A stretch of 42,855 nt of DNA from a virus. A program made the translations under genes and the position numbers. Where the stretch lies: positions 1 to 42,855 of the IMG/VR virus record IMGVR_UViG_3300033153_003852, one strand, 5' to 3'. Below are positions 3,531-40,649 of this stretch, one piece after another. Below the pieces are notes generated by a model. The model saw only the letters and a program-made list of their open reading frames with translations. It was not told the origin of the DNA and ran no database searches. Position 1 is the stretch's first letter; each line of letters opens with the position of its first letter.

Positions 3531-4418
3531 TCACTTCCCATACCATTGGATTATATCACCCAATTGGGCAATTGTACCATCCCTCTTCAGTTCTCCAATA
3601 CGTGCCCCTACCTGTTCGTCTGTCATCCGCCCCCCTATCCATTTTCTATTCAACTGTAATTTTTTACATCGGGAATAGACAGACTCAAATTTCTTATTCG
3701 ATGGTACGAGAATATAACCAGTAAATGTAATATTTGAAAAAAAGAATTTATAATGATATTTTGGTATCATATCTGCCAAATCAACAACACCATTTATCTT
3801 TAATTTCACATATCTTTTTGATGTATAGTAGTACCCTCCACCCCAATCAGTGGCCTCTTTCCATAAGTTATACGGTTTGAATGTCACGGACACTATTTCC
3901 CCTTCTTTAAGCATATAATATATTTGACCATGATACAATTGATGTAACAAACGTTCCCAGATTTTAGGAGAATATCTTTCGTTATTCCGCATATCATAAT
4001 TTGGCACGACCCAAAACCCATATATCTTATTTTTTGAATAACCCTTTATCTTAGATAGTAACTTCTTCACATCCATATTACTGACTTGAATTTCAAAGGC
4101 AACTTTCACACCATTGCATTCAGCATATACATCCGCTATGAAATCCCCAATTATCTTTTCTACTTCAACATTCTCGAATTTATTCAAATTGTTGATCTGA
4201 TTATATATTGATAATTTACATGACATGTGCAGTTCGGATTCGGGAGAACCAGAATTACAATTTTTACAAGCTTTGTGGGCGAAATGGTGTATTTTAATCA
4301 ATCCTTTTTTGATTATAACGGGAGATTTACATCCAGGACATAGAAATGGAGCATTTTCTTTTTTAGTATATGATGCTATTACCTTTTCACCCGTTGATGT
4401 TTGGATGGCAGAAATCAC
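3531..4418 (-). CDS. CoiA-like nuclease with winged-helix tail
   Basis: A 295 aa protein matching the competence protein CoiA family layout. A zinc-finger start (C27-P-G-C30) is followed by H-H-F-A-H (44-48), C51/C54 and E-x-E-L-H (60-64). The nuclease core of PD-(D/E)XK type has D96 in I-A-D-V-Y-A-E and E109-I-Q-V-S. The family acts on DNA during uptake or recombination; in viruses its role is not established. The last 34 residues (M-T-D-E-Q-V...I-I-Q-W-Y-G-K) closely resemble the last 34 of the adjacent D5-like helicase and look like a winged helix. The gene follows the helicase after four bases, so the two are probably made together and may act on the same DNA. Confidence 0.75.
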   Translation of the reverse strand: MISAIQTSTGEKVIASYTKKENAPFLCPGCKSPVIIKKGLIKIHHFAHKACKNCNSGSPESELHMSCKLSIYNQINNLNKFENVEVEKIIGDFIADVYAECNGVKVAFEIQVSNMDVKKLLSKIKGYSKNKIYGFWVVPNYDMRNNERYSPKIWERLLHQLYHGQIYYMLKEGEIVSVTFKPYNLWKEATDWGGGYYYTSKRYVKLKINGVVDLADMIPKYHYKFFFSNITFTGYILVPSNKKFESVYSRCKKLQLNRKWIGGRMTDEQVGARIGELKRDGTIAQLGDIIQWYGK

Positions 4419-11233: not shown

Positions 11234-11266
11234 CACTATCTTATATTAATAACCTTGTTAGATTAT

Positions 11267-13486
11267 ATGTCCTCAGCCGTTGATAATGAAGTCGAAATAG
11301 ACTATGGAAATAAAGAGCGTGGCTATGTCCAGCCTTTTGACGATTACGTAAGCGAGATGATAGATTATATCGATTCTTATGGAGTTGATGAGCCGAGCAT
11401 TACGGCCAGGCGTAGTATGATGAAGGATGCTCAGGTCAAGGCCGCTGTCGGATTGTTAAAAGAAGGAGTATTATCATCTGGCTGGGAAATTCATTATGAC
11501 TGGGATGAGCAAAAAGAACTCGGAACAGAAATGACCAACTATCTTTATGAATCACTTAATCGAATCAATGAACAGCCTTATAGTGCTGGCGGAATCGAGG
11601 ACTTAATCGAGAAATGGATGGGCGCACTCTGGTATAAAAAGATGGTATGTGAGTTGGTCTATGCCCATGATAAGCAGAATGAATACATCTATGTCAAAAA
11701 GGCCAAAGTCTTACCGCCCGAAAGTATCAAATTGCCATGCGACCCATACGGCAATCTCAAAGCCATCCAACAATTCCCTTATAATATCGAGACTGAAAAC
11801 CTATACAGCACTGGTGATTATGTCGATACCAAGCCAGTTGAACTTGATATGAATCAATGTCTTTTATGGGTCAATGGGGACGATTATAGCCAGTTCAACG
11901 GTGAATCTGAGCTTGATTGTGTTTATAAATACTGGTTCTTAAAGGATTTCATTCTTAAGTTTTGGTCTATGTTCGTAGAACGGTTTGGCGCGCCGCTGTT
12001 AATCTCATTCGTCAGAGCCAAAAACATGGATAAAGCCAGGGAAAGAATGAAAAACGTAATTATTGAAACCTCACTGGCGATGGAAAAAGACGATAAAATC
12101 GAAATGATGGAACCCAAAAAAGAAGGTAAAGTTTTCAACATGATGATTTCGTATTGTGATAATAATATTTCCAAAGGTCTTTTACGTTCATTATTGCTCG
12201 GATCTAAAACTGAAGAGTCACGGTCAGATTCCGATGTCGATTTTAGATTATTTGAATTTAGGATTGAGTTTATCCAGCGCAAATTACAAAATCTTACACG
12301 GGCATTGATCAAAAAGGAAATTGATTTGAATTTCAATGATGTTAAGCACTATCCCGTTTTCACATTCAGTCCATTCAGTGATAGAAAGAAGCGGGAAATG
12401 GCTCAGACCTTCGACCTGTTGGTTAAGAACTCATTAATTCACCCGCTTGAGCCGTGGGTGCGAAGGGAATTACAATTGCCAGAAATGGAAGATAGATTCG
12501 AGGACGACTTAGACCAGGCTTGGAAAGCGAAGATGTCCGCTGGTAGCGGGGCGATTATTGCAACCCAATCACCAACGGCGGAGATAACGAGGACGGAAGC
12601 CCAGACCAATCAGCGTCAGAGAAAGGGCGTTGGTGAGACGGCACAATTGGCAGATGACCCAGTATCAAGGGTCGAAGCCCAGTTAGACGAAGCCGATAAG
12701 AAGTTTGGGGATTTCTTAGTTCCGACATTGCAGGATTCTATTAAGGGATTGATTAAGGACATTGAAAAGAAGCTGAAGGATGATAAGTCAGTTGAGTTTG
12801 CCGAAGTTCCTACATGGCTTAAGAATCTGCAATACACGATTGTGGGGCTGGAAGCGGGGTTCGCTGAATTGTTCGATGAGATAATGGTCGATGTGGTACT
12901 GTCTGATAATTCATATTTGTCTGGAATGGGTATGAAGCCGTCTTTCGATGTTCGTACAAGGACTGGTGCTTTCAAGTGGATTGATAAGAGGATAGGGGAT
13001 GTTAGGAGCGGCCTATTGGATTATGGCAGTGCCAATGCCAAAGCCCTTGAATTGAGAATCCTTGAGGACACCAAGGCGATAGTCCAGTCTGGAATAGATG
13101 AAGGGCTACGTGGTAGGGATGTCGTTAAGAATCTGGAAGATGGATTATTGGGCAATCGGTACTCGAAAGCCCAATTAAAAACCGTTGTCCAGACGAATAC
13201 CACAGCCATAGTCAATCAGGGCAAAAAGGCGTTTGCCCGTGCCAATGTCCCGTTTGTGAAGGGCATGGTATTCTATGCAGTCGTTGATAAGAATACAACT
13301 GATATTTGCCGTGAGAGGGATGGGAAGGTCTTTGCAATCGATGACCCAGCACTCGATAAAAATACTCCTCCACTTCATTTTTCTTGCAGATCGAGTTTGT
13401 CATATATCATTAGCGGACAACCAAAATACAGTCCAGAGGGGATAACCGCAGACATTCCAACCGGATTTGGAGGGGATATTGGATGA
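11267..13486 (+). CDS. Portal protein fused to MuF head-morphogenesis domain
   Basis: Residues up to about 440 form a Mu gp29/DUF935-like portal, the ring through which DNA enters the capsid. The C-terminal part (about 560-739) is a MuF/SPP1 gp7-like domain ending in the family signature V-D-K-N-T-T-D-I-C, D-G-K-V-F, P-P-L-H-F-S-C-R-S. These are usually separate neighbouring genes; here they form one chain joined by a polar linker. The ATG at 11267 is used. TTG at 11255 sits almost exactly at the predicted transcription start, and neither has a ribosome site. The stop overlaps the next start (ATGA). Confidence 0.9.
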   Translation: MSSAVDNEVEIDYGNKERGYVQPFDDYVSEMIDYIDSYGVDEPSITARRSMMKDAQVKAAVGLLKEGVLSSGWEIHYDWDEQKELGTEMTNYLYESLNRINEQPYSAGGIEDLIEKWMGALWYKKMVCELVYAHDKQNEYIYVKKAKVLPPESIKLPCDPYGNLKAIQQFPYNIETENLYSTGDYVDTKPVELDMNQCLLWVNGDDYSQFNGESELDCVYKYWFLKDFILKFWSMFVERFGAPLLISFVRAKNMDKARERMKNVIIETSLAMEKDDKIEMMEPKKEGKVFNMMISYCDNNISKGLLRSLLLGSKTEESRSDSDVDFRLFEFRIEFIQRKLQNLTRALIKKEIDLNFNDVKHYPVFTFSPFSDRKKREMAQTFDLLVKNSLIHPLEPWVRRELQLPEMEDRFEDDLDQAWKAKMSAGSGAIIATQSPTAEITRTEAQTNQRQRKGVGETAQLADDPVSRVEAQLDEADKKFGDFLVPTLQDSIKGLIKDIEKKLKDDKSVEFAEVPTWLKNLQYTIVGLEAGFAELFDEIMVDVVLSDNSYLSGMGMKPSFDVRTRTGAFKWIDKRIGDVRSGLLDYGSANAKALELRILEDTKAIVQSGIDEGLRGRDVVKNLEDGLLGNRYSKAQLKTVVQTNTTAIVNQGKKAFARANVPFVKGMVFYAVVDKNTTDICRERDGKVFAIDDPALDKNTPPLHFSCRSSLSYIISGQPKYSPEGITADIPTGFGGDIG

Positions 13487-15936
13487 ATGCAGAATCCTAT
13501 GAATGTGAGTGCCTTGAATGTGGGCATAAGATGACCAGTGAGAATCATTGTAATGAGATTGTTTGTAGTGAGTGCGGGGGCGAGATGCGAAGGGCGGAAC
13601 GGCCTGGCGTTGGGTATGTGGATTTTAGTGATGAAATGGAGTTCATGGCTAAACCGTTTGGACACCCAGCAGGACAGACGTTACAGGGCAAACGTATAAT
13701 ATCTCTCATACCAAAACATAACAAATTCGTTGAACCATTCTGTGGTTCTGCAACGATATTCTTTATGAAAGACCCAACAGACGGGAAAGAAATACTTAAC
13801 GATTTGTCAGCGAACTACACCAAAGCACTCAGACTCTTGAAAAATATTAATGATGACCAGATTAAGAAAATCATAAAAAAGAATTGGACTGGTTCAGCAT
13901 CGTATTTTAGTAAAATAAAAAATATGACACCGCCCCAGGATGATATAGATTGGTTGCATTGGTTTCTGTATAAGACAACCTTATCGTTCGGCTCAATGGG
14001 TGGGTCTTTCGACTCGTCAGACGAGGGGCACACTCGTACTCTCAATCAAGCCCGAAGATACGAGAAGATTCGAGACAGAATGAAGAATGCTACCATCACA
14101 AAAAAGGATTGGGTGGAGTGTGTTCGGGAACATGACACGAAAGACACGTTTTTCTATATAGACCCGCCGTATTATTCAGCGAAAGATAAAAGGGCTTCTT
14201 CTTTCAAGATAGGGGAAGTAGACCTCAAGGATTTCGTTAAAGTTCTCAAATCCATCAAAGGAAAGTTCATATGTTCAATTGGGGATGAATCGAACTGGAT
14301 AAAAGAAATGAAGGACGCTGGATTTCGGGTTAAGAAAATCACATCGCAACGCTCAATACCAACACTTGAAACAGGAAACAAAAAATCAACAGCCGACTGG
14401 CCACTGGTTACCAATTTCGACATCAAACCACTTAACATATATTCAATGGCAGAGTTTAGCATAGAAGATGCGGAATTAACCGCCGTAGCTCCACATGACA
14501 CCCTGAAGGCTGACATTGAAACACCCTGGGACGCAACCGAAGCCGAACTCAACATAAGAAAATGGGCTTCCAGCGATGGCTCAGGAGACAAAGATAAGAT
14601 AGACTGGGCTAAATACCGTCAGGGCTTCGCATGGTACAACAATGATGACCTTGAGAATATCGGAAGCTACAAGCTACCACATCACGACATCATAGATAAT
14701 TCATTAAAGGTCGTTTGGAAGGGCGTGGCCGCTGGCATGGGTGCATTGATGGGAGCAAGGACACCGATAAAAATCCCAGATGAAGATAAGAAGCCAGTCT
14801 ATACTCATTTATCAGGTCATTATGAGCAGTTTGAAAAGGACGTTCCTGAACTATCCAGATGCGATGACTTCTTTTCTGCAATCACCCCGAAGTTTGAAAA
14901 GCTATCGTTGGCAGATTCTGAAAGAACAGGCCAGACAGAAATCTTAATGATAGACGGCACGGCAATCGCTGAAGGATATTGGAAAAACACAATGTTCACA
15001 GCCGATATTGTCAAGGACGCTTTGGAAAGGGCTGGCGGTCTAAGAATTGATGTTGAACATGAGGATGAAAGCTGGGAGGACGTTAAAGGATTCAATTACA
15101 AGCCTCGCTGGAATGATGTTGTAAACGGCATTGATGTAAGCGGGGCAATCTTCGATGAGAAGGTCATAGACTGGTACAAGCGAAACCCTGACACCAAAAT
15201 CGGCCTGAGTGTCAAATTAAACGACAAAGCAACATTCGAACAAATTGACGGTAAAAAGACTTGCACATTTTTAGATTTCAAAGGGATAACACTGACTCTA
15301 AATCCCGCCTGTAAGGTATGCTGGCTAAAATCAGCGGAGTTAGTGGAATTAAGCTCATCAGATAAAACTGATGGAGGTACTGAAATGGCAGAAAAACAAA
15401 AAACGCCTGAAGAACTGGCAGCCGAAAAGAAGCTTGCAGACGATAAGAAACTCGCTGACGAAAAGAAAATCGCAGATGAGAAACTGGAAGCCGACAAGAA
15501 GCTGGCAGATGAGAAGGCTGAAACGGATGAGGAACAGAAAAAGCAGGAGGAAGCCGCTACTGCCAAGGCTGAGGCGGCCAAACCTACTGCGCTCAATGCT
15601 GAAATCGAAAAGAGATTCAGTGAAATGCAGACAGAAATCGACACTCTGAAAACTGCAAACACAACCCTCAGTAATGAGAGGTCATTGAGTGAGACGAATG
15701 CAATGGTAAACGGCTTGATAGAATCAGGCCAAATCTCTGAGGCCAAGAGAGAGGGAACTACAAAGGTCTTGATGGCTCTTTCGAGCGACGAGGACAGGGC
15801 GGCGTTCCTGAATACCGTTGGAGGCCAGAAAGCATGGGAAGCTGGAGAAAAGGGCTTGGTTCTTTCCGAGGACAAAGACAAGGATAAGGACAAAGAGCTT
15901 GAGTTCAGCGAGCCAGAAAGGAGGTCATTCACATGA
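13483..15936 (+). CDS. Zinc ribbon-adenine methyltransferase-prohead protease-scaffold polyprotein
   Basis: One chain of 817 aa with four parts. (1) Zinc ribbon, C10-x2-C13 and C28-x2-C31. (2) D12-class N6-adenine methyltransferase, about 55-320: K-P-F-G start, motif I F-V-E-P-F-C-G-S (82-89), motif IV D-P-P-Y (227-230). (3) Prohead maturation protease, about 355-615: a Y-K-L-P-H-H-D region, then D-V-E-H526-E-D and I-G-L-S576-V as the likely His/Ser pair. (4) Lys/Ala/Glu-rich coiled coil from 635, a scaffold. The protease cleaves scaffold and capsid during maturation. The methyltransferase insert is foreign to this family as usually seen, and the enzyme may be released by self-cleavage. The gene overlaps both neighbours by ATGA. 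Confidence 0.9.
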   Translation: MNAESYECECLECGHKMTSENHCNEIVCSECGGEMRRAERPGVGYVDFSDEMEFMAKPFGHPAGQTLQGKRIISLIPKHNKFVEPFCGSATIFFMKDPTDGKEILNDLSANYTKALRLLKNINDDQIKKIIKKNWTGSASYFSKIKNMTPPQDDIDWLHWFLYKTTLSFGSMGGSFDSSDEGHTRTLNQARRYEKIRDRMKNATITKKDWVECVREHDTKDTFFYIDPPYYSAKDKRASSFKIGEVDLKDFVKVLKSIKGKFICSIGDESNWIKEMKDAGFRVKKITSQRSIPTLETGNKKSTADWPLVTNFDIKPLNIYSMAEFSIEDAELTAVAPHDTLKADIETPWDATEAELNIRKWASSDGSGDKDKIDWAKYRQGFAWYNNDDLENIGSYKLPHHDIIDNSLKVVWKGVAAGMGALMGARTPIKIPDEDKKPVYTHLSGHYEQFEKDVPELSRCDDFFSAITPKFEKLSLADSERTGQTEILMIDGTAIAEGYWKNTMFTADIVKDALERAGGLRIDVEHEDESWEDVKGFNYKPRWNDVVNGIDVSGAIFDEKVIDWYKRNPDTKIGLSVKLNDKATFEQIDGKKTCTFLDFKGITLTLNPACKVCWLKSAELVELSSSDKTDGGTEMAEKQKTPEELAAEKKLADDKKLADEKKIADEKLEADKKLADEKAETDEEQKKQEEAATAKAEAAKPTALNAEIEKRFSEMQTEIDTLKTANTTLSNERSLSETNAMVNGLIESGQISEAKREGTTKVLMALSSDEDRAAFLNTVGGQKAWEAGEKGLVLSEDKDKDKDKELEFSEPERRSFT
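15385..15936 (+). CDS. Nested scaffolding protein from an internal start
   Basis: An in-frame ATG (codon 635 of the polyprotein) is preceded by a perfect GGAGGT at 15373-15378, six bases away, deep inside coding sequence. The 183 aa product is exactly the scaffold part: repeated K-L-A-D-E-K-like coiled coil (to about residue 60), a second helix region and an acidic D-K-D-K tail. It lacks the protease and methyltransferase. This mirrors the lambda C/Nu3 nested arrangement. Translation from this site is inferred from the ribosome site and domain boundary. Confidence 0.75.
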   Translation: MAEKQKTPEELAAEKKLADDKKLADEKKIADEKLEADKKLADEKAETDEEQKKQEEAATAKAEAAKPTALNAEIEKRFSEMQTEIDTLKTANTTLSNERSLSETNAMVNGLIESGQISEAKREGTTKVLMALSSDEDRAAFLNTVGGQKAWEAGEKGLVLSEDKDKDKDKELEFSEPERRSFT

Positions 15937-16355
15937 GCGACACGACAACTGGAATACAAGAAAACGATGTCAACGGTAGCGCAATCATAGATACCACTGA
16001 GAGTGCAACTGTAGTTGATGGCATGGCTATGGAAATGATGGACAATGGCAACGTCAAGATTTGGAATGCTGGAAAGTATTGCGGGCTTGCTCGCATAATC
16101 AAGGGTACTGATGTTGGCGTGTCCAGTGCTGTCAAGGGTGATAGGATTGCCCTACTCCGAAAGGGAATACATGAGGGAATTGACAGCGAGGATGATGTCC
16201 TTACACTCAATCAGCCAGTGAAATGTGTTGGTACAGTCGGAGCACTCAGGCTATGGGTTGGTGGAACTGATTATGTCGATGACCTTGTAGGGTATGTTGA
16301 CAGGCTGAAGGATGCCAACAAGAAAATTCTTGTCAGGCTAACTGGAGGTGCATAA
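15933..16355 (+). CDS. Putative capsid decoration protein
   Basis: 140 aa, between scaffold and major capsid genes, the usual site for decoration or stabilising proteins. Gly- and Val-rich strands from about residue 25 (V-D-G-M-A-M-E-M...V-R-L-T-G-G-A) fit a small beta-barrel cap such as lambda gpD, after a disordered Ser/Thr-rich N-terminus. Start overlaps the polyprotein stop (ATGA). No family match was seen beyond this layout. Confidence 0.6.
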   Translation: MSDTTTGIQENDVNGSAIIDTTESATVVDGMAMEMMDNGNVKIWNAGKYCGLARIIKGTDVGVSSAVKGDRIALLRKGIHEGIDSEDDVLTLNQPVKCVGTVGALRLWVGGTDYVDDLVGYVDRLKDANKKILVRLTGGA

Positions 16356-16356
16356 T

Positions 16357-17256
16357 ATGCCTTTGGAACCAAACCAAGCATATGAGGGTCTTTTCAAGAA
16401 TCCAGACGCTATCGATGCACGTCAGAAACAATATCTGGCAAAACTGGTCGGATCAGTCTTGAAACAGTCGTTTGAAATGTCAATCACGCCACATTTATTC
16501 GTGTCGAACGCACTGGACAGAAAGGCAGGCACATCTGGAAAGTTCTATGATGACGGGCAACTTATTGCACGCCTGAAACCAGATGGCATTCCAACGGGGC
16601 TCAGCAAGATAAAGCGCACAAGCATTGGATATGAACTTGATGAGTACGAAACCAAAATAGCAATCACTGACAGGGCAAAACTCAACATGGATACCAACGC
16701 TCAGGGAATTTTGAGTGCTGGCGACCATGCGAGGGCTTTTTCGAGGGCTGTCGATGCCCAGGCGTTCACTCATGTCAAGGCAGATATGGAAACAACCAGC
16801 GGTACTGATTGGTCAGCAGCAACTGATACTGACGTGCTTAACCAACTTGATGGGATTCTCGGTGAGGTCGATGACGATGGTTTCAATGCCGACGCAGTTG
16901 TTTGGACAAGATTGCAGAGATCAAGGATTTCCAAGATTGGGTTATCATATTCCAATCCACTGACAGCCGAGGACTTAATAAAGAAGGAATATCCGCAGAT
17001 CAAGAACACATACATCTGGAAAAAAATAAGAGCAAAGAAGCCAGATGGAAGCGGTTATGAAACATTCTTTGACCCGACTGGATACTTGTTTGCAATCGAC
17101 ACGAAAGCGTGTGGTGTTTTCACAGAACGACCAATGACCCTTGAGAATTTCAGGGACGTGGACGCTGGCGTTGACTTTGCTTATGCAAGGAAATACTTCC
17201 AGACTGCATTAGTACAGCTTGATGCCGCACACCAACTGGACAGTTTGGTAATCTAA
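16357..17256 (+). CDS. Major capsid protein
   Basis: 299 aa with the size, position and composition of an HK97-fold capsid protein. It follows protease/scaffold and decoration genes, and the C-terminal half has the strand-rich pattern seen in this fold (Y-I-W-K-K-I-R-A-K, F-A-I-D-T-K-A-C-G-V). GGAGGTG lies six bases before the ATG at 16357. A GTG at 16348 is part of that ribosome site and is not used. A hairpin and T-rich stretch follow the stop. Confidence 0.8.
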   Translation: MPLEPNQAYEGLFKNPDAIDARQKQYLAKLVGSVLKQSFEMSITPHLFVSNALDRKAGTSGKFYDDGQLIARLKPDGIPTGLSKIKRTSIGYELDEYETKIAITDRAKLNMDTNAQGILSAGDHARAFSRAVDAQAFTHVKADMETTSGTDWSAATDTDVLNQLDGILGEVDDDGFNADAVVWTRLQRSRISKIGLSYSNPLTAEDLIKKEYPQIKNTYIWKKIRAKKPDGSGYETFFDPTGYLFAIDTKACGVFTERPMTLENFRDVDAGVDFAYARKYFQTALVQLDAAHQLDSLVI

Positions 17257-38028: not shown

Positions 38029-38201
38029 CTCCCAACAGGGACATAGAATCGTTCCCCTCTGAAATCTATCATACCAGAATATCCATGCTTAATCATCCAC
38101 GCTTTTCGGTCAGTCCAGTATAAATCGGTGTCCCCACTGTCGACGGCCTCGAAAATTAGGTTTAGCCTGCCATGACCGAAGTGTCTTTGATATTTTGTCA
38201 T
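38025..38201 (-). CDS. Hypothetical protein, 58 aa
   Basis: Small alpha/beta protein (L-N-L-I-F-E-A-V-D-S-G-D-T-D-L-Y-W then F-R-G-E-R-F-Y-V-P-V). Supported by ATGA overlaps at both ends. Not recognised. Confidence 0.6.
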   Translation of the reverse strand: MTKYQRHFGHGRLNLIFEAVDSGDTDLYWTDRKAWMIKHGYSGMIDFRGERFYVPVGR

Positions 38202-38890
38202 TCTCTCACCTTCAACGCCTCTGGTAATTCCATTAGTGGTTCTACGACCGTGAGATTTGGCTTAACGAAAACGGGAATATTCAGCCCTTCGGCTATGGTT
38301 ATGATGTTCCTTACCCATTCTTTTTTAGGCTGGATAGTAGGATTTGTTTGTGCGCCGATTGCAACAAAATCTATTCCATGAAGATTCGGTATGATGGACG
38401 AATACACTGGCTCGAATGACACCCAGCGGTTCTTACATCGTATACGCTTCAATTCTTGGATTCTCCAAGTATCATCTTGACAGTTCACAGTTACCCCGAC
38501 CCATGCATTATCTGGCCAGTCAAGTTCTTTATCGGCCAGTAACTCAGGTCGCTTTGTGAGGAAGTAGAAGATATGTTGGGGGCATTCCTCAATGACATCT
38601 ATGATTAGTTGGAGCCATTCGGTTTCGGCATAACAAATATCTCCCATAAAGCAGGTGTCCCATCTTGTAGGCTTCTTTCTTTGACATGGTATATCCAGTT
38701 TATACACATCAAACGTTGGTTCGAATGGATATGGCATAGTATATCCTTTGACTTTTGGGTTTGCCCCTAACATCAATGACCGCTTGTATGCCCAGCAGTT
38801 ATGTCCGACCGCGCACGTACCATTTTCTATTCCCTCACAGCCGTGATATGGATTCCACGATTTGTCAGCGTATTCTATCCCCGGTTTCAT
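38198..38890 (-). CDS. DUF5131 / phage Gp37-Gp68 family protein
   Basis: 230 aa. The family signature is present in order: S-W-N-P-Y-H-G-C then N-C-W-A-Y near the start, W-D-T-C-F-M-G-D-I-C, Y-F-L-T-K-R-P-E, N-A-W-V-G-V-T-V-N, S-F-E-P-V and F-V-A-I-G-A-Q-T. Members are common in phages and are predicted to adopt a TIM-barrel/radical-SAM-like fold with Cys ligands; their reaction is not established. The start at 38890 was chosen for its ATGA overlap with the preceding gene. Confidence 0.8.
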   Translation of the reverse strand: MKPGIEYADKSWNPYHGCEGIENGTCAVGHNCWAYKRSLMLGANPKVKGYTMPYPFEPTFDVYKLDIPCQRKKPTRWDTCFMGDICYAETEWLQLIIDVIEECPQHIFYFLTKRPELLADKELDWPDNAWVGVTVNCQDDTWRIQELKRIRCKNRWVSFEPVYSSIIPNLHGIDFVAIGAQTNPTIQPKKEWVRNIITIAEGLNIPVFVKPNLTVVEPLMELPEALKVRE

Positions 38891-39123
38891 TTTTCCACAT
38901 CCATTATTTTGCATCCGTCCTTTTTCACTATTCTAATATCATCTATCAAGTAGCCCATTCGCCTACAAAAGACACCTCGAATTATCGTGTTGAATATATC
39001 TTTGTATTGGGGGTTGGGGTCGGAAGTATCCCACATATATTTTCCCCTACGTATATCTTCTACTTCTTTGTATGCAGTACATTCATTAGTACATTCTCTA
39101 TCCTTATCATAAGCGCATTTCAT
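38887..39123 (-). CDS. Small Cys-containing protein, 78 aa
   Basis: C-A-Y-D-K-D-R-E-C-T-N-E-C near the start gives a possible metal site. The rest is alpha/beta, ending C-K-I-M-D-V-E-K. The ATG at 39123 overlaps the preceding stop (ATGA). A start at 39207 would intrude into the upstream gene. Confidence 0.55.
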   Translation of the reverse strand: MKCAYDKDRECTNECTAYKEVEDIRRGKYMWDTSDPNPQYKDIFNTIIRGVFCRRMGYLIDDIRIVKKDGCKIMDVEK

Positions 39124-39661: not shown

Positions 39662-39997
39662 TTAACACATCCAATTTATTCCCACCCTCGACATTTCATC
39701 TACTATCTTATCACATTCGTCTTTGCCCAGTTCCTTTGCCCATTCGTCAATTGACTTATTTCTATCTTCCCTGAGCACATTCCTTGCTACCTCATCTGAA
39801 ATTTCATAGAGCCAGTGGTCAAAAAGTAAACGATGATATGGGCAACTTGTATCCATTCCCATTCCAGGCGTTCCGTCCCTCAATTCATTACACCCTGGCC
39901 ATGTGCATTCGGGTATTGGCGTTTCGCCTTCGCTTATTCGTTTGATATTAACTACATTTATCGCATTATTTCTTTCTTTGATAATTTCAAGTACCAT
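39662..39997 (-). CDS. Cys/His protein, 111 aa
   Basis: C-T-W-P-G-C at residues 31-36 and C-P-Y-H at about 52-55 suggest a C2CH zinc finger. The second half is helical and acidic. The start overlaps the ERCC4-nuclease gene by 11 bases. Family not recognised. Confidence 0.6.
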   Translation of the reverse strand: MVLEIIKERNNAINVVNIKRISEGETPIPECTWPGCNELRDGTPGMGMDTSCPYHRLLFDHWLYEISDEVARNVLREDRNKSIDEWAKELGKDECDKIVDEMSRVGINWMC

Positions 39998-40649
39998 TTT
40001 CTAAACCCCATACTATTTTGACTTGTTCTTGTATTTTTTTCCCAATTCCCTCAATGTCCTCATGCCAATCATCCAGATGAACCATAGCATTTTCGGGTGT
40101 CTGATATACTTTGAGTATTCTTTCCGCCAGCGTTTCCTTAATGTTAGGCAAATTGCAGATAAAATTCATCCGAGGGCTTAACCCTGGCTGGATGATAACT
40201 GGCCGCCTGATGTTCTGCAATCGCCCACTTTCCAAATCCCTCACTATCTCTGATATGATGTCGCAGGATTCCTGGCAGTTCCTTGTTTCGTAAGTAGTTA
40301 TCTTCCTATTTAATGTCCTGATAGTTTTCTCATGCTTGCGTACCGTTTCATAGACATCTTCACGTCCTGTCTGTCGTGGTTTCCACCCTTCGACAATAAG
40401 AATTGGAAAATTAGACATGAGGGTACATCTTGAAATCTGGCTATGAAGTCTGCCATCATGTAATGAGCTATCAAAATCAGTACGCTTCATCTCGATCATC
40501 ACAATACAATCTTTGTAGATTAGCTTAACATCGGATTCCTCCATATGAATCATCTTGACCAGTCCCAATTCCCTGTCTATGATTTCTTCCATGATTTCGG
40601 ACGAATCCTCATGCACGTCAATGAATATCAGAACGGGTTCATCGGTCAT
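39987..40649 (-). CDS. ERCC4/XPF-type structure-specific nuclease
   Basis: 220 aa. The ERCC4 nuclease fold shows F-I-D11-V-H-E14, then I-E53-M-K55-R-T-D58-F, a variant of the ERKxxxD box that is one residue short, followed by S-L-H-D-G-R-L-H-S-Q-I and P-I-L-I-V-E-G. The C-terminal 65 residues form a helix-hairpin-helix pair (N-L-P-N-I-K-E-T-L-A-E-R-I; I-E-G-I-G-K-K-I). Such proteins cut branched or flap DNA in archaeal and eukaryotic repair; here it probably processes replication or recombination intermediates. It is the strongest archaeal-type gene in the window. Coupled to the upstream gene by ATGA. Confidence 0.85.
   Translation of the reverse strand: MTDEPVLIFIDVHEDSSEIMEEIIDRELGLVKMIHMEESDVKLIYKDCIVMIEMKRTDFDSSLHDGRLHSQISRCTLMSNFPILIVEGWKPRQTGREDVYETVRKHEKTIRTLNRKITTYETRNCQESCDIISEIVRDLESGRLQNIRRPVIIQPGLSPRMNFICNLPNIKETLAERILKVYQTPENAMVHLDDWHEDIEGIGKKIQEQVKIVWGLENGT

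Follow-up and report, generated by a model that had tools for sequence, protein, structure and literature searches.

How a D12 adenine methyltransferase comes to lie inside a prohead protease-scaffold polyprotein, and what it might do there, is the question raised by one open frame in a viral metagenomic contig of 42,855 nucleotides (IMG/VR record IMGVR_UViG_3300033153_003852; the whole stretch is hereafter called the window). We examined the frame domain by domain, compared it with its relatives, and searched for other viruses in which such an enzyme shares an ORF with a prohead protease.

The polyprotein gene and its neighbours

The frame runs from an ATG to a stop over 817 codons with zero internal stops (Table 1), exactly where the initial annotation had placed an uninterrupted frame. 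A frame so long, and one that holds several recognisable domains, is not credible as a product of chance. The ATG follows a Shine-Dalgarno-like sequence and shares four bases (ATGA) with the stop of the preceding gene; an internal start at residue 321 was also considered, and was rejected as it has no Shine-Dalgarno-like sequence upstream. The genes are ordered portal-MuF, polyprotein, small protein and capsid-like protein, the last with a weak Pfam score, and the small protein had no match among Pfam or PHROG families. This order, together with the relatives described below, supports the assignment of the polyprotein to the head module.

Table 1. Positions of the polyprotein, its domains and other genes in the window
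Feature	Position	Strand	Residues	Basis or remark
CoiA-like nuclease gene	3531-4418	-		
Portal protein fused to MuF-like minor head protein	11255..13486	+		PF06074 2.7e-38, PF04233 3.3e-15
Shine-Dalgarno-like GGAGGGG	13469..13475	+		Read directly; 7 nt 5' of polyprotein ATG
Polyprotein ORF	13483..15936	+	817 aa	Open frame; zinc ribbon, D12 methyltransferase, accessory domain, prohead protease, probable scaffold
Zinc ribbon	13498..13632	+	6-50 (4-48 in the comparison with L195)	Cys 8, 10, 13, 23, 28, 31
D12 (Dam-type) adenine-N6 methyltransferase	13645..14439	+	55-319	PF02086
Accessory domain, 'RKWASSDGSGDKDKIDW...YKLPHHD' / 'RKWASSDGSGDKDKIDW...SYKLPHHD' / 'WASSDGSGDKDKIDW'	14446..14880	+	about 322-466	
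Prohead protease	14893..15357	+	about 471-625	Iterative profile, alignment, model pLDDT 87, fold matches
Charged helical region, probable scaffold	15370..15933	+	630-817	42% charged
Possible decoration protein	15933..16355	+	140 aa	Position only; no family match
Major capsid protein-like	16348..17256	+	302 aa	PF25209 Phage_capsid_4 E 0.0023, below Pfam cut-off; position
DUF5131 gene	38198-38914	-		
ERCC4-domain (ERCC4-type nuclease) gene	39987-40649	-		

Domains of the polyprotein

Profile, motif and fold evidence bore out the four domains named in the initial annotation (zinc ribbon, D12 methyltransferase, prohead protease and scaffold), which had missed the separate accessory domain between methyltransferase and protease. 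The zinc ribbon is matched weakly by NF033497 and shows 67% identity (45 aa) with the one encoded by the homologous gene of another virus, L195. In the profile searches, PF02086 (MethyltransfD12) matched residues 71-291 well above its cut-off (E 6.6e-14, 52.7 bits versus 22), while TIGR00571 matched below its own. Motif I (FVEPFCGS, residue 82) and motif IV (DPPY, residue 227) are both intact, and the closest solved structures are T4 Dam, DpnM and EcoDam. The enzyme of L128 is 69% identical; since pN is 0.23 and pS 0.94 for this pair, the methyltransferase is under purifying selection. Motif X reads PFGHPAGQ in both, as compared to PFTKWTGGK in DpnM and PFGSPGGK-like sequences in many embedded relatives.

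The protease part gave no direct protease match in Pfam or PHROG, and specifically no match to PF14550 (XkdF) in the Pfam search. Starting from the window and a Woesearchaeota protein as seeds, an iterative profile reached classical HK97/S78-type proteases as well as XkdF domains in L137 and L145; the link to these XkdF domains is a remote one, and a direct profile comparison of the window protease with XkdF domains is weak. In an alignment of 21 sequences His526 (VEHED) is invariant, and Ser576 is the probable nucleophile, placed by its motif (IGLSV), with the MAFFT column lying two residues off the serine of remote relatives. The structure prediction suggested in the initial annotation, run on this alignment with AlphaFold, gave a protease model with a pLDDT of 87.4 and an assemblin-like fold, matching herpesvirus assemblins in the PDB (best E 9e-4, TMq 0.5-0.6) and phage capsid maturation proteases in BFVD (E about 1e-8). 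Judged by profile and predicted fold, this region is an assemblin/HK97-type prohead protease.

The C-terminal ~190 aa are predicted to form one long helix and short helices, in a model of low to moderate confidence. The region is conserved in the related viruses L004, L195 and L196, and is probably a scaffold. This AlphaFold model, of the C-terminal 496 aa from a two-sequence alignment, reached a pLDDT of 41 and was left out of the fold search.

A mosaic protein with an exchangeable N-terminus

Searching for relatives with and without the methyltransferase, as had been advised, retrieved both kinds. L004, represented by three contigs of nearly the same virus, shows about 73% DNA identity to the window over the portal and again from position 14482 on, with a different N-terminal module inside the homologous ORF. 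The L195 polyprotein (73% protease identity) consists of a ChaB-like stretch, the zinc ribbon as in the window, a second ChaB-like stretch, protease and scaffold, and lacks both the methyltransferase and the accessory domain; in that of L196, ChaB-like stretches and another module come before accessory domain, protease and scaffold. These ChaB-like assignments were made by eye, and the Pfam search gave no match for them. The enzyme of L128, linkers included, lies inside a polyprotein of more than 762 aa, which starts with an L004-like N-terminus and stands behind a terminase gene and a 441-aa gene (portal by position only, with no family match). Further searches for members of the window/L128 subclade returned L128 alone and one chance match, L234.

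At the sequence level the window protein is thus a mosaic, its ribbon shared with L195, its enzyme with L128 and its protease-scaffold with L004. The relatives retain the protease-scaffold (protease identity 69-82%) and exchange the modules in front of it, so that the N-terminus appears to behave as a cargo slot.

The sharing of parts with three other viruses also bears on whether the join could be an assembly chimera or a sequencing error, as might be asked of a single metagenomic contig. This we regard as extremely improbable: on either side, the portal, protease and downstream genes run co-linear with those of L004 (DNA identity about 73%), L195 has ribbon and protease in one gene, and L128 holds the same enzyme and linkers within a polyprotein. 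The initial annotation had reasoned that an artefactual join would be betrayed by relatives encoding the methyltransferase as a separate gene. We found no D12 gene at any other place in the records of L004 and L195, nor any in the short L196 contig, and in L128 the enzyme is internal to the polyprotein.

The accessory domain

In about 100 loci the 'WASSDGSGDKDKIDW' domain adjoins a prohead protease of one type or another. Its partners include S49/ClpP-like proteases (sequences read by eye), and the domain occurs beside prohead proteases of unrelated folds; in the Moorella phage MTATph1 it stands alone. In L020 (1154-3913) and L021, from bacterial MAGs, two Nudix-like domains, recognised by reading the sequence, precede the accessory domain, the protease and a helical tail in one ORF. 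The domain is also present in archaeal genomes, with Bathyarchaeota and Woesearchaeota as the nearest cellular relatives; it occurs in 13 of 398 genomes from the phylum to which the Bathyarchaeota MAG belongs, and is shared by the window with a methanogen virus.

A wider class of methyltransferase-protease polyproteins

A scan with three embedded enzymes yielded 62 viral loci, of which we read L128-L152, L155, L156 and L160; in about half of these the enzyme is part of an ORF some 500-1800 aa long. By Pfam, a D12 enzyme and an XkdF protease share an ORF in L129, L130, L131, L135, L137, L139, L140, L141, L149 and L154; local profiles built in part from the same sequences bring in L133, L134, L136, L138, L145 and L151. 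Leaving near-copies aside, at least 11 distinct viral contigs besides the window encode one or more D12 methyltransferases and an XkdF-type protease in one ORF. The fused ORFs are flanked by portal and capsid genes of different PHROG families (L139, L149, L129, L141, L142, L146). Some also carry an ATP-dependent DNA ligase domain, detected by Pfam in L135 and L137 and by local profile in L136 and L145; in L005, L132, L142, L143, L147 and L150 enzyme and ligase occur with no recognised protease in that ORF. Among the annotated phages searched by tblastn no fusion was seen, the matches listed covering the methyltransferase part only, and none of 398 genomes of one archaeal phylum had a methyltransferase in a long ORF.

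Several loci show further peculiarities. In L132 (5521-9535) the methyltransferase-ligase ORF overlaps a 766-aa ORF with an XkdF-like end, and the two may be a frameshifted form of the methyltransferase-ligase-XkdF polyprotein of L136 (1869-7133), which itself appears, as read from the sequence, to contain an intein-like insert mid-way. In L154 (3032-4001), QueD- and QueE-like genes, likewise recognised by reading, lie between a MuF-like gene and a two-methyltransferase-XkdF polyprotein, and may point to deazaguanine DNA modification. AJP62006 of the archaeal virus ANMV-1 (KP703175), annotated as an ATP-dependent DNA ligase, resembles part of the L006 methyltransferase polyprotein.

In a maximum-likelihood tree of 44 domains all fused enzymes, including that of the window, form one group apart from the stand-alone phage enzymes sampled (100/99 support); the sole separate gene in this group is one in L154, just before the two-methyltransferase-XkdF ORF. 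As sampling began from fused seeds, with one pattern reflecting their motif X, the tree demonstrates the clade and says nothing of the frequency of stand-alone members. The window arrangement is one variant of a broader, poorly described class and not a unique oddity.

Most embedded members, like the window, have motifs I and IV intact, but no DPPY is recognisable in the first copy of L141 or in L152. These two cases and the variant motif X would fit a domain that now serves the scaffold by binding DNA or as a structural element, and whose catalysis no longer matters; given the motifs kept elsewhere and the purifying selection, we consider such a role improbable.

Restriction-site usage and the host

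The imprint of restriction on this virus group is visible in its avoidance of sites. The 57-kb L195 virus (L217-L219) has a single GATC where 301 are expected, and no CTAG (38 expected), CCGG (55) or CGCG (103). The same four sites are depleted in the window, less strongly; GATC occurs 37 times versus 230 expected, despite the enzyme. L004, which has no methyltransferase, tolerates GATC better than the window does, and these counts do not support protection of GATC by the methyltransferase. Because CCGG and CGCG have no adenine, their relaxation in the window is not due to this enzyme, and since a different host would explain the contrast with L195 equally well, site usage neither proves nor names the target of the methyltransferase.

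The host of the window virus is likely an archaeon, judging by the archaeal relatives of the accessory domain, its presence in a methanogen virus, and the ERCC4-type nuclease and PKD repeats encoded in the window.

A proposed role in the virion

Our best explanation, to which we give somewhat better than even chances, is that fusion to the scaffold loads the enzyme into the prohead, that the protease frees it, and that it travels with the genome as a countermeasure against restriction. Enclosure and release, both proposed in the initial annotation, are plausible: the fusion offers the enzyme a direct way into the prohead, and the protease a way to be set free. The ORF would be a head-assembly polyprotein whose C-terminal scaffold brings the whole chain into the growing prohead, where the assemblin-type serine protease would process the scaffold and, probably, the linkers flanking the methyltransferase. 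The freed enzyme, if catalytically active, would remain in the capsid, enter the next cell with the DNA and methylate viral DNA there at its putative target sites, blunting restriction; in addition, it may methylate DNA while particles are being assembled. A methyltransferase carried in virions is usually explained as shielding the incoming DNA.

The single ORF between portal-MuF and capsid-like genes supports a head polyprotein, and module swapping among relatives, together with the Nudix-like pair of L020 and L021, supports a cargo slot. The explanation is further supported by the recurrence of embedded D12 and XkdF domains beside different portal and capsid families, by the separate clade, by the kept catalytic motifs, the purifying selection and the restriction imprint on the group, and by the precedent of P1 DarB (PMC5512222); the variant motif X and the GATC counts in the window and L004 speak against it.

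Stand-alone D12 enzymes occur in many phages, and scaffold fragments commonly leave the prohead. The enzyme might accordingly act in the infected cell on replicating DNA, as phage Dam does, with the fusion setting only the level and timing of its expression and the domain being degraded or lost at maturation. We find this rather unlikely, as a late scaffold gene is an odd site for an early-acting enzyme, and as the embedded enzymes form a separate clade within head polyproteins, which suggests that location matters.

If packaging is the correct reading, recurrence and fusion suggest that such viruses load DNA-modifying enzymes into their heads and pass them on together with the genome. This hints at a general route by which tailed viruses load enzymes into the head by appending them to the protease-scaffold chain, in a slot whose apparent occupants vary between viruses (methyltransferases, DNA ligase, Nudix-like or ChaB-like modules); cargo so delivered would act at DNA entry, when restriction matters most. 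More tentatively, a distinct adenine methyltransferase lineage may have settled for good, often alongside DNA ligase, in the prohead protease polyproteins of uncultured tailed viruses, some of them archaeal; their virions would then bring into the cell a set of DNA-modifying and repair enzymes released by the protease. The class has been overlooked because databases name its members "DNA methyltransferase" or "unknown", and it supplies candidates for direct proteomics and methylation mapping.

Comparison with known systems

The initial annotation knew of no such arrangement; this holds for the exact domain order and not for the principle, since methyltransferase-prohead protease ORFs recur in many different viruses and in PHROG 13242. 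This family, which has no assigned function, is the best match of the window protein: its positions 29-293 fit the window methyltransferase (E 4e-38) and 318-424 match the XkdF-like protease region of L142, so that a methyltransferase-protease fusion already exists in a public family. Positions 239-347 of phrog_1530 match the L142 protease region too, the methyltransferase in this family being taken from its name only (DNA methyltransferase). The window protease does not match the protease part of PHROG 13242, and the window adds accessory domain, zinc ribbon and scaffold. Our search of open-access journal papers found no published description of methyltransferase-prohead protease polyproteins.

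With the methyltransferase-XkdF (PF14550) polyproteins (L129-L131, L135-L137, L139-L141, L145, L149, L154), which lie in the head module where flanks are readable, the window shares the layout of a single ORF in which a D12 enzyme, of one clade with theirs, precedes a prohead protease; it differs in having no PF14550 score, no DNA ligase domain and a single methyltransferase. Stand-alone phage Dam-type methyltransferases have the same Pfam family and motifs, but are separate genes and, among those sampled, a separate group.

MuF-fused effectors resemble the window in joining an enzyme to a head morphogenesis protein, likely for delivery with the DNA (PMC5512222), their partner being MuF or portal instead of a protease-scaffold. 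The nearest described principle is that of polyvalent proteins and P1 DarB, a virion methyltransferase that acts in cis to protect DNA (Iyer et al. 2017, PMC5512222). These authors list DNA adenine methylase among the partners in virion-linked multidomain proteins and note a paucity of polyvalent proteins in archaea; the word "scaffold" is absent from their paper. In the window, too, an adenine methyltransferase is one of several domains of a large protein with a putative tie to the virion. DarB, unlike the window, pairs a different methyltransferase with a SWI2/SNF2 helicase, a domain that the Pfam and PHROG searches did not detect in the window ORF, and has no prohead protease-scaffold fusion.
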